A stretch of DNA of 47,429 nt from a bacterium (GTDB lineage: Bacteria > DRYD01). Location of the stretch: assembly GCA_030549815.1 (NCBI GenBank), contig JAUQQQ010000002.1:1-47429 (forward strand). The letters are read 5' to 3'. The position numbers were made by a program, and so were the translations under genes. The notes beneath the pieces are model-generated. The model saw only the letters and a program-made list of their open reading frames with translations. It was not told the origin of the DNA and ran no database searches. Shown piece by piece: positions 1 through 22,101 of the stretch (its first letter is position 1; each line of letters opens with the position of its first letter).

Positions 1-30
1 ATTTTCAGCCTACCTATAAGGGATTGAAAC
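1..30 (+). CRISPR. Possible CRISPR repeat at the window edge
   Basis: The first 30 bases begin ATTTTCAGCC and end ATAAGGGATTGAAAC. This resembles 30-bp repeats of thermophile type I-B/III arrays in length and ending. It could be the last repeat of a genuine CRISPR array lying to the left, or simply the first visible unit of the 89-bp array. Later copies diverge in the first nine bases (for example AATCGCAGT at 90-98). No cas gene is visible in the window. Confidence 0.3.
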
Positions 31-717
31 TGTGTTAATGAGAATAGAATAGTTAATTTTATCCAACTTAGTTGGATAGATTGCTTCGCAATCGCAGTCT
101 ACCTATAAGGGATTGAAACGGTATTAATGAGAATAGGAAAATTCATTTTATCTGACTGTGTCGGATAGATTGCTATGCAATTATAGCTACCTATAAGGAA
201 TTAAAATAGTATTAATTAAAATAGAAGAAAATGCTTTCTGATTGTATTGGATAGATTGATCACAATCCCATGCTACCTATAAGGAATAGAAACCTTTTTA
301 ATTAAAATAGAAGAATTAGTTTTATCCAATTTAGTTGGATAGATTTCTATGCAATCGCAGCCTACCTATGATGAATTGAAACTTACGATTATATCTCATT
401 TGGATGGGACCCTATTGCAAATCGCAGCTTACCTATGAAGGATTGAAACTGTGTTAATGGAAACAGAAAAATTCGTTTTATCCAACTTCGTTGGATAGAT
501 TGTTTTGCAATCCCCGTCTACCTATGAGAGATTGAAATGTTTTTAATTAAAATAGAATAGTTTTTTTTATCCGATGTTGTCCGATAGATTGCTTTACAAT
601 TGCAGTCTATCTATGAGAGATTGAAACATTGTTAATGAGAATAGAAAAATTTGTTTTATCCAATTTTGTTGAATATGTTGCTTTGCGATTGCATCCTACC
701 TATAAAGGAATTAAAAC
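1..717 (+). repeat. Tandem array of ~89-bp CRISPR-like units with two hairpins each
   Basis: A 21-22 bp motif ending in variants of ATAAGGGATTGAAAC recurs at 10, 99, 187, 273, 362, 429, 518, 607 and 696, a spacing of 86-89 bp except one 67-bp unit (362-428). The ATTGAAAC end matches the crRNA 5' handle of many type I-B/III CRISPR repeats (family knowledge). The intervening sequences are not unique spacers. They are homologous to each other, and most contain a 7-bp triloop hairpin (ATCCAAC-TTA-GTTGGAT at 61-77) followed by a 6-bp triloop hairpin (GATTGC-TTC-GCAATC at 79-93). Stem changes are often compensatory: the A-U pair 65/73 becomes G-C at 154/162 and 573/581, and the C-G pair 67/71 becomes U-A at 242/246. 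The array starts before the window and ends 12 bp before the pseudogene stop. No ORF is evident in it. Confidence 0.9.
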
Positions 718-1646
718 TTTGGTTATATATTACCTGTATATAGTTTCCCACATATAATACATTTTTCTTTTTTTAGTATTAAAATTCATTCCACATATTA
801 TTACATTTTTTTCTAAAGTATACTTAGCATAATATTCTTTATTTTTTATTTGTTTTAGTGCTTTTTCTTCATCTTTATCTATCTTAATTTCGAAAATGTA
901 TATTTTTTTGTTTGGAGTTTTAAGGATAATGTCAATTCTTCCCAATTTGGTATGCAATTCTGCATTACAATCGAATCCTGTAGAATACAAATAAACATAC
1001 AGGAATGATTTTATACTTTTTTCATCGTTTCTATATAAATCATAGGGTATGTTCTCAACGAGTTTATTTATTCTAAATTCTATTTCTTGTGTATCAAAAT
1101 TTTCCAAAGCTTTTCGTAAGGGATTGATTTCACTATCTTCACCTTTCCAATCTTTTAAGAACTCTCTTAACAAGTTTTCATTAAAGCTAATTTGTACTTC
1201 TTTATTGGGAAATTTTAATTTATAAAACTTTCTACTGTATTCTTCTTTTACTTTGTGTATTGTTAAATATCCTGTTTGGAACATTAAAGCTTCTATGCTT
1301 ATTTTGTCTATATCAACTCTGTTTAAGTCTTCTTCAGACAACATCAATTCCAAATTAGGAATTTCGTACTTATTATGTTTTATGAGTTTTATTAATACTT
1401 TAGGATTTCCAGTTTCGTACCAATAGCTGCTATAAGATTTATTTTTTAAATAAAGCAAGACATCGAAAGGGTTGTAAATTTTGCTACTTAGCTACCAGTA
1501 GCCGTTATACCAGTTTCTTATGCCTTCTATCTCTTGTTCCTTTATTCTTTCTCCAAATGTAAGCAATAACTCTTTTTCAGTGTATCCGCATAAATCACCA
1601 TATTCTTGATTTAAGCTAATATCTTCTAATTGGTTTAACCCACAAA

Positions 1647-1664
1647 CCGGGGCCCCAAAACCCC
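1647..1664. repeat. GC-rich palindromic insert in pseudogene
   Basis: CCGGGGCCCC (1647-1656) followed by AAAA and CCCC is an island of G/C in AT-rich coding sequence. It adds about eight residues (RGFGAPVC) between SLF and GLNQLED, where relatives run straight through SLFSGLN (recalled family pattern). In-frame insertion suggests a small mobile or slippage-derived palindrome. Confidence 0.5.
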
Positions 1665-1760
1665 TAAAAAGAGAGATTTTGGCAAACTTGCTTATTCCTG
1701 TAATAAAGACAAACTTTAAGTACTGATCCATTCCTTTTATTGTTTGATATAATCCTTTTT

Positions 1761-1788
1761 CTCTTACGAGAGAATGACTTCGTCATTC
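1761..1788 (-). repeat. Two-hairpin palindromic element, pseudogene copy
   Basis: GAATGAC-TTC-GTCATTC (772-788 of the second thousand, 7-bp stem, triloop) abuts CTCT-TACG-AGAG (1761-1772). On the minus strand it reads hairpin with GAA loop, then CTCTCGTAAGAG. This is the same plan as the triplicated 27-bp element at 21892-21972 (GAC-GAA-GTC core, then a TTCT/AGAG hairpin). It interrupts the reading frame between VLE and REKGLYQ and introduces a TGA. Confidence 0.65.
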
Positions 1789-2158
1789 CAATACATCCCT
1801 TATTTCTTGCGCTATTTTTTTTTGTCTATATTATCGAGAATGAGCTTGTCATATTCATCTACTAATTAATACTAATTTTTTGTTGGTTTTTTCTGAAATG
1901 TTTTCTATTAATTTCATCATTCTTGTTCCAATATGTTTTGGATGTAATTTTACTTGATAATTTTTAGCATACTTATCCTGAATTACTTTTATGTATTCAT
2001 TTAATTCTTCTGCATTTTTAAATGTAGTATCGAAAGAAATTCTTATAACAGGATACTTTTCATTCCAATTCCAATTATTTTCCAGATACAACCCTGTAAA
2101 TAATTTTTCTCTTCCTTCGAAGGCGGACTTTAAAGTATCAACAAAAAGGCTTTTACCT

Positions 2159-2167
2159 GCGGAACGC
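2159..2167. repeat. Short palindrome at a frameshift
   Basis: GCG-GAA-CGC (minus GCG-TTC-CGC) lies exactly where the pseudogene reading frame changes between RPRR and AGKS, that is, inside the Walker A region. The GAA/TTC triloop is shared with the element at 1761-1788. It is too short to be sure it is more than coincidence. Confidence 0.3.
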
Positions 2168-2280
2168 CTAATAATCGTCGAGGACGAGATAAAAAATAAT
2201 ACTTACCTTCATCTACTAACTTTTTTACAAAATATGTCTTATCCAAATAATAGTATCCTCCTGTTCTTATCTCTGCAAAA

Positions 2281-2295
2281 GGGGACCCCTGCCCC
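2281..2295. repeat. GC-rich palindromic insert near pseudogene start
   Basis: GGGGACCCC followed by TGCCCC sits in AT-rich sequence. It encodes VGQGSP between ISSF and FAEIRTGG, where family members usually read ISSFKKIRTEG (recalled pattern). It resembles the GGGGCCCC insert at 1647-1664 in the same gene. Confidence 0.45.
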
Positions 2296-2444
2296 ACAAA
2301 ACTACTTATTCCTATTGGTAACTTCTTCACTTATACGCACTCCCACAGGTTTTTTTTATTTCCCTACATTATATTTACAAATTCAATTTGTTATTACCTT
2401 TCAATTGAAATTGTTAAAATGGAGGAAATTAAGGGGAATTAAAA

Positions 2445-21225: not shown

Positions 21226-22101
21226 ATGGGAAAAGTGGTTATTATTTGTCCTATTTTTAATGAAAAAGAAAATATAATAGATTTTTTATATAGCATTTCT
21301 AATTATATTAATGATGATGTTCATTTACTTTTGCTTGATGATTTTTCTACTGATGGTAGTAGAGAATTATTGCAAAAAATTAGTCAATATAATTTTTTGA
21401 ATGTTTATTTTATTTTTAATGATTATAATTTGGGTTATGGAGAGAACTTGTTAAGAGGTTTTTTATGGGCTTTGGAAAAAGGTTATGAAATAATATTAAC
21501 TATAGATGCTGATTTTCAACATCTACCTTCTTATATACCAATATTTATTAATTTGGCTGAAAAATATGAATTTATCACAGGTAGTAGGTATTCTTTTAGT
21601 AGTTTAAAAATTGATGAGAAGAATTTTTTTAGATATTTGATCAATAAAAAAATGGTTGAATTTGTTAAAAGTTTTTTTAATGTAAGAATAACCGATTTCT
21701 TCTGTGGTTTTAGAGCATATAGAAGAGATTTACTTAGTTATATTTGCAAAAATTTACTTGCTTTGAAAGAAAGGAGGGGATTACATTTTTCTTATGATTT
21801 TCCGATATATCTATGGATTGATTTACTTAGTTATGGTTGTGTTGTTAAGGAGTTTCCTATACCTTTCATTTTTTTCACCCACCGAAAGTTCAAAGGACGA
21901 AGTCCTTTCTCGGAGAGGGAGGGACGAAGTCCCTTCTCGAAGAGTGAAGGACGAAGTCCTTTCTCGGAGAGTGAAGAGCAAGTTAATATCAATAATCATT
22001 ACAAAAGAATCAAACTTTATGTAGATATCTTTTGTTGGTATTATTGGGAAAGAATGGGAAAAAAATCATTGATTGGTAAAGATTGTTGGTTAAGGAGGTA
22101 A
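21226..22101 (+). CDS. Family 2 glycosyltransferase with an in-frame palindromic insert
   Basis: A 291-aa GT2 enzyme (dolichol-phosphate-mannose-synthase-like). It has VVIICPIFNEKENI at the N-terminus, LLLLDDFSTDGS (nucleotide binding), LTIDADFQHLP with the DxD-type metal site, and ITDFFCGFRAYRR. It would transfer a sugar from a nucleotide or lipid donor at the inner membrane face. Near the C-terminus residues GRSPFSERE, GRSPFSKSE and GRSPFSESE form three 9-residue repeats encoded by the palindromic element at 21892-21972. They sit between PIPFIFFTHRKFK and the basic tail. The reading frame is preserved. The end overlaps the start region of the next gene. Confidence 0.92.
   Translation: MGKVVIICPIFNEKENIIDFLYSISNYINDDVHLLLLDDFSTDGSRELLQKISQYNFLNVYFIFNDYNLGYGENLLRGFLWALEKGYEIILTIDADFQHLPSYIPIFINLAEKYEFITGSRYSFSSLKIDEKNFFRYLINKKMVEFVKSFFNVRITDFFCGFRAYRRDLLSYICKNLLALKERRGLHFSYDFPIYLWIDLLSYGCVVKEFPIPFIFFTHRKFKGRSPFSEREGRSPFSKSEGRSPFSESEEQVNINNHYKRIKLYVDIFCWYYWERMGKKSLIGKDCWLRR
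21892..21972 (+). repeat. Three tandem 27-bp two-hairpin palindromic elements
   Basis: Units 21892-21918, 21919-21945 and 21946-21972 each hold a hairpin with GAC-GAA-GTC core (AAAGGAC-GAA-GTCCTTT in the first) followed by TTCT-CGG-AGAG. The second unit changes A894-T906 to G921-C933, a compensatory substitution. A period of 27 keeps the glycosyltransferase frame open, giving nine extra residues per unit. The sequence is much richer in G/C than its surroundings. Confidence 0.9.

Follow-up and report, generated by a model that had tools for sequence, protein, structure and literature searches.

The review literature on CRISPR arrays covers duplications that arise when repeats recombine, spacers inserted at ectopic sites and trailer ends that are conserved, and proposes that divergence of the terminal repeats, together with loss of their dyad symmetry, stabilises the trailer end against collapse (PMC8047081). 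The tandem array examined here resembles such trailers or anchors in its leader-distal position, mutated terminal repeats, lost dyad symmetry and duplication of spacer-repeat blocks (PMC8047081). Known trailers, however, usually comprise one or a few degenerate repeats and unique old spacers, whereas here ~8 repeats carry the same structured ~66-nt pseudo-spacer, which is kept across species. RNA anti-CRISPRs (Racrs) are likewise CRISPR-repeat-like units with structured RNA potential, but they are virus- or plasmid-borne and solitary and keep the Cas6 stem-loop (PMC10651486), whereas the present units are chromosomal, tandem, inside true arrays and devoid of the 5′ arm of the repeat; a Racr assignment was rejected given the tandem chromosomal trailer location, the loss of the Cas6-binding repeat stem and the lack of any phage, plasmid or viral match. 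CreA of the CreTA systems likewise lies near CRISPR loci and has a pseudo-spacer flanked by degenerate repeat-like sequences, yet it is a single psi-repeat/psi-spacer/psi-repeat guide with palindromic psi-repeats that represses an adjacent toxin (PMC10097628), unlike a tandem series with two hairpins in each pseudo-spacer. REP/MITE palindromic repeats also form short adjacent palindromes and head-to-tail clusters, but these families are dispersed and the present units occur in CRISPR trailers only. Among open-access papers (subscription journals being largely absent) no description of such trailers was found, and in our analysis the locus appears to fit the reviewed trailer scheme with an unusual twist, namely that the pseudo-spacer itself is a conserved double palindrome.

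The array occupies positions 1–717 of the window (the whole 47,429-nt stretch of DNA that was analysed), at the extreme start of contig C5 of a 1.59-Mb, 23-contig genome from a hot-spring bacterium; it is cut by the contig end at base 1 and therefore runs off the contig. It opens with an intact CRISPR repeat, ATTTTCAGCCTACCTATAAGGGATTGAAAC (1–30, plus strand), which is the last true repeat, reads in the crRNA sense, matches Rfam CRISPR-DR2 at 41.9 bits (the only known RNA family matched) and recurs unchanged as the leader-proximal repeat at C3:1-30 and C9:25-55. Beyond it, direct reading gives successive intervals of 89, 88, 86, 89, 67, 89, 89 and 89 bp, comprising seven homologous ~89-bp units and one 67-bp interval, each closing with ATTGAAAC or a near variant, and TRF recovers two 89-bp blocks (6–382, score 362; 415–703, score 317). 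At 6 occurrences against an expected 3.95, the motif ATTGAAAC by itself is no rarer than chance would give in a window this AT-rich; the 89-bp periodicity, rather than the motif count, is the significant signal.

Each unit consists of four variable bases, a box near TTAATNARAATAGAA, an AT-rich linker, hairpin 1, a directly adjoining hairpin 2 and the last ~23 nt of the CRISPR repeat. In unit 1 (31–119), a 66-nt body holds the box, the triloop hairpin TATCCAAC-TTA-GTTGGATA (hairpin 1, 60–78) and the triloop hairpin GATTGC-TTC-GCAATC (hairpin 2, 79–93), with the 23-nt 3′ repeat part at 97–119. A covariance model of the units (R1) scores 79–107 bits on every full-length unit in the window, with E-values down to 1e-15; all lie on the plus strand: unit 1 (107.1 bits, delimited also by alignment A1), unit 2 (120–207, 95.1 bits), unit 3 (208–293, 79.2 bits), unit 4 (294–382, 99.5 bits), unit 6 (450–538, 98.2 bits), unit 7 (539–627, 97.9 bits) and unit 8 (628–717, 89.9 bits), the most distal, with an indel in its repeat part. 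The paired stem changes pointed out earlier are all present in the sequence: relative to unit 1, positions 154/162 (unit 2) and 573/581 (unit 7) carry G-C in place of A-T, and 242/246 (unit 3) carries T-A in place of C-G; unit 7 also holds a C-C mismatch at 572/582. The tandem array of homologous, structured ~89-bp intervals that the earlier note had described is thus borne out by direct reading, TRF and R1 scores, and its two-hairpin architecture holds for seven units and fails at 383–449 (plus strand). That interval consists of an ordinary ~36-nt spacer (383–418) and a unit-type repeat, has the normal CRISPR period (66–67 bp in the true arrays) and shows no significant similarity to the hairpin units. 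Two general features of the window were also considered: triloop palindromes, whose count is close to shuffle expectation and which were rejected as a genome-wide feature, and a TTGAAA (the repeat end) that lies, between 24 and 561, upstream of a TAGAAT/AATAGT-like box hexamer in each unit in a promoter-like arrangement. Promoter and terminator consensus matches do not exceed shuffled expectation and were set aside.

The true arrays of this genome are built from the repeat ATTTTCAG(T/C)CTACCTATAAGGGATTGAAAC with 36–37-nt spacers (C3:198586-199845), and their direction of transcription is fixed by leaders at C3:1 and C9:25 that are 94–97% alike. Within the genome, units are confined to C5, C14 and the end of C19, R1 giving no strong site elsewhere; the C14 block is 93% identical to that of C5 over 707 bp. 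On C19 the units come directly after two true repeats with a unique 35-nt spacer between them, which places the units at the leader-distal end of real arrays in the crRNA sense. There the array meets the series at unit 6, the pattern expected from repeat-mediated deletion of units 1–5. The direct repeats agree in sequence and orientation with the functional CRISPR repeat of the host and adjoin true repeats, a contiguity that in the window is carried by the single intact repeat at 1–30, arrays in these draft MAGs breaking at contig ends. Since the intervals are homologous ~66-nt bodies in place of unique spacers of uniform length, the unit stretch is array-derived and not an ordinary functional array. 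The suspected CRISPR derivation, with repeat ends like the organism's own, was accordingly upheld by the CRISPR-DR2 match at 1–30 and the true arrays on C3. The free-standing small-RNA locus or dispersed element that had also been proposed gave way to the leader-distal part of ordinary CRISPR arrays.

The same module stands at the trailer end of CRISPR arrays on three contigs here and at four loci in two congeners (Candidatus Calescibacterium). An R1 search of 59 genomes (this one and 58 relatives) found matches beyond the genome itself in the two congeners only, and a pattern scan of 84,980 species genomes returned two contigs, both from congeners (G002:C36 and G003:C44). The congeners' own CRISPR repeat is GTTTTCAGCTTACCTATGAGGAATGAAAAC, and their loci run from true repeats with unique spacers through units to an AAA-ATPase_like/PDDEXK_9 gene where the contig continues. 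Units are immediately preceded by true repeats with unique spacers in C19, G002:C36, G002:C47 and G003:C44, a leader and cas2 (by reading of the translation) lie upstream in G002:C47, and all unit loci are in the crRNA sense. Ordinary 35–37-nt spacers are interleaved with units at three loci (window 383–418, G002:C36 and G003:C146). Successive units in G003:C44 become less recognisable with distance from the array, and relics of units are found in G003:C124 and G002:C25.

Among related genomes, G001 gave no unit match and G005 no repeat match, both being incomplete MAGs. A search of six related genomes for the double-hairpin pattern (≤3 mismatches) matched trailer arrays only, and a dispersed palindromic or REP element was rejected as all double-hairpin matches in the genome itself lie within the three trailers. 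Units gave no blastn match to phages or plasmids; a viral origin was likewise rejected, none of 63 matches to a loose pattern in IMG/VR being supported by the covariance model and tighter patterns giving 0. Units are absent from four arrays of another genus of the family (G004), where the trailers of C4 and C16 (L142, L143) have another sequence in common, ATCTGAA..TAG.GGAATTGAAA and additional GAATTGAAA copies, a likeness suggesting that trailers may often be conserved between arrays of one genome. In the same genome, a gene that by eye is Cmr1-like (RAMP) starts right after a CRISPR array trailer (G004:C26:33800-34845, L145), suggesting a putative type III-B system.

We consider the units, on balance and with appreciable doubt, to be the old, leader-distal part of the host's CRISPR arrays, where a single palindromic pseudo-spacer unit multiplied, was copied along with its array and is now decaying. 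Before at least three Calescibacterium species diverged, a ~66-nt module (an AT-rich box plus two adjacent triloop palindromes) would have come to occupy one spacer position, displacing also the 5′ arm of the following repeat; the junction is identical in every species. Head-to-tail multiplication of the unit may then have come about through inter-repeat recombination or replication slippage, after which the trailer would have been copied with its units to several loci, as indicated by the unit order kept in C5, C14 and C19. Units would subsequently have decayed away from the array, a trend visible in a congener and suggestive here. The likeliest role would be that of a recombination-refractory trailer or anchor and not of guides, any transcript presumably being the 3′ tail of the pre-crRNA. 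Paralogues are equally similar whatever the distance between them (0.74–0.79), species separate in the unit tree with 98% support and unit order is kept between C5 and C14, all of which fits old lineage-specific amplification, block copying and then decay. C5 and C14 are identical at 492/508 positions in units 2–7 and at 890/917 in the 3′ part of the neighbouring gene, an equal rate that leaves no recent purifying selection on the units visible in this comparison.

Three observations count against a relic. First, stems diverge less than loops, linkers and junction: among paralogous units here, divergence is 0.19 in stems and 0.18 in the box, below that of loops, linker, junction and first bases (p=0.003 and 0.010). 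Second, the paired changes in hairpin 1 are not predicted by plain decay, unless lineages each re-amplified a perfect palindrome. Third, persistence in three species (the number sampled), in several arrays per genome, suggests some benefit.

The leading alternative is that the units are functional tandem structured RNAs released from pre-crRNA, Cas6 or another RNase cutting the repeat-derived ends and the two-hairpin RNAs binding Cas proteins or another partner. We judge this unlikely, and marginally more so in its specific form, in which Calescibacterium arrays would end in conserved, tandem, crRNA-like structured small RNAs with AUUGAAAC-type repeat-derived 5′ ends and two hairpins, selected because they bind or regulate Cas components or shield the array 3′ end. 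The better conservation of stems and 5′ box and the crRNA-sense orientation at every locus speak for it, as does covariation in hairpin 1 across species. In 17 units from three species, 19 cells had changed on both sides of a pair, compared with 8.8 in column shuffles (0/500 shuffles reached 19), and all 19 fall in hairpin 1. Because relatedness can mimic covariation, a null was built by simulating unlinked evolution on the unit tree; against it, the 19 cells and the covariation score retained p-values of about 0.001–0.003. Covariation is marginal within this genome (p 0.03 for the score, 0.15 for double changes) and absent within congeners (p 0.28–0.75), which counts against structured RNAs; most of the signal is thus the contrast of TATCCAAC..GTTGGATA here with TATCTTGC..GCAAGATA in congeners and possibly reflects few events. 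The assertion that structure is kept while sequence drifts consequently stands between species for hairpin 1, is marginal inside the genome and does not extend to variation within congeners; a statistical test of covariation, which the earlier note had called for, bears out hairpin 1 across species (p about 0.002), hairpin 2 having no double changes. Nor is there an excess of G-U over A-C on the transcribed strand after tree correction (p 0.48–0.93): an apparent RNA-strand bias in the raw cells of this genome (26:8) was removed by the tree-aware null and was discarded, so that RNA-level selection is not shown. The relic copies in G003:C124 and G002:C25 also weigh against such RNAs.

Processing by Cas6 meets a further difficulty. 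Where the CRISPR repeat has its 5′ arm (ATTTT or GTTTT), every unit instead carries the 3′ arm of hairpin 2, a replacement that makes Cas6 processing less plausible, and the repeat is predicted to fold less stably in a unit than in its true form (−4.7 against −7.6 kcal/mol here; −0.1 against −5.3 kcal/mol in a congener). Units therefore look, in these folding predictions, like poorer Cas6 substrates than true repeats. In favour of structured RNAs, Cas6 genes are present in all three genomes, the one here lying at C10:8728-9342. At 75 °C, a temperature assumed from the hot-spring lineage, hairpin 1 alone is predicted to stay folded (−1.8 kcal/mol), outdoing the true repeat, whereas hairpin 2 is predicted to have melted by 70 °C. 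The description of the units as Cas6-processable is thus doubtful in view of the missing dyad arm and weaker predicted fold, its surviving element being a genome that encodes Cas6. We favour a palindromic trailer module, whether relic or anchor, over a Cas6-processed small-RNA locus.

A less probable reading, which we hold to be improbable, treats the units as DNA-level palindromic sites of a mobile element that is tied to an AAA-ATPase/PD-(D/E)XK gene and settles in trailers, the nuclease-ATPase acting on the palindromes. In the window, a broken AAA-ATPase_like/PDDEXK_9 gene (730–2330, minus strand; PF08011 4.6e-17, PF09820 1.4e-13) lies convergent to the array, and an intact copy of this DUF1703-type gene (C14:851-2368, 505 aa) stands beside the C14 units; sequence comparison puts the end of the block common to C5 and C14 at 2360–2401 of the window. 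Beyond the C14 gene, at ~2454–2490, lies a degenerate CRISPR repeat (score 19, none in controls), so the gene, flanked on both sides by degenerate repeats, sits inside an array remnant. This flanking favours a mobile element, as do the gene or its remnant beside units in C5, C14, G002:C36, G002:C47 and G003:C146 and beside a unit-less array in G002:C25, and the expansion of the family (16 matching segments and about 12 copies here; about 30 in G005). The C3 trailer holds a short sequence resembling the upstream region of the gene. Against it, other copies in this genome have no repeats or units nearby, which argues that the gene is not a general carrier of units; moreover, the gene is convergent here and codirectional in congeners, C19 has units without the gene, and another genus with many AAA genes has unit-less trailers. 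A family of this type has 25 paralogues of unknown function in a Cardinium (PMC6387759), and PADLOC gave no match for the AAA/PD-(D/E)XK protein, leaving membership of a defence system unsupported.

Several side observations concern this gene family and its surroundings. Head-to-tail AAA-ATPase_like/PDDEXK_9 clusters lie at G000:C15:74193-77451 (two full copies and one cut) and G005:C73:7410-15062 (at least five full copies). GC-rich palindromic inserts of ~21–23 bp (GGGGCCCC-type) break AAA-ATPase_like copies in this AT-rich genome, at window 1644–1664 (absent from the intact C14 copy) and at about G000:C12:94520 (L157), near a gene start. Elsewhere in the window, three 27-bp tandem copies of AAGGACGAAGTCCTTTCTCGGAGAGGG (a triloop palindrome with a tail) occupy 21893–21976, near the end of the ORF at 21226–22101.

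That palindromes and covariation are purely mutational, produced when template switching corrects quasi-palindromes in a neutral tandem repeat devoid of DNA or RNA function, would accord with paired changes lacking strand bias and concentrated in hairpin 1 and with free decay in congeners, but deserves very little credence, palindrome correction offering no account of the equally strong conservation of stems and unpaired box.

The memories in a CRISPR array are generally regarded as unique, yet in these three species several arrays end, on their oldest side, in copies of a single palindromic pseudo-spacer, in units that have lost half of the symmetry of the repeat. Such units are a trap for array-finding software and for taking ATTGAAAC repeats as guides. 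They also offer a natural test case for trailer stabilisation versus collapse, for the entry and multiplication of non-spacer sequence in arrays, and for non-guide RNAs in array transcripts.
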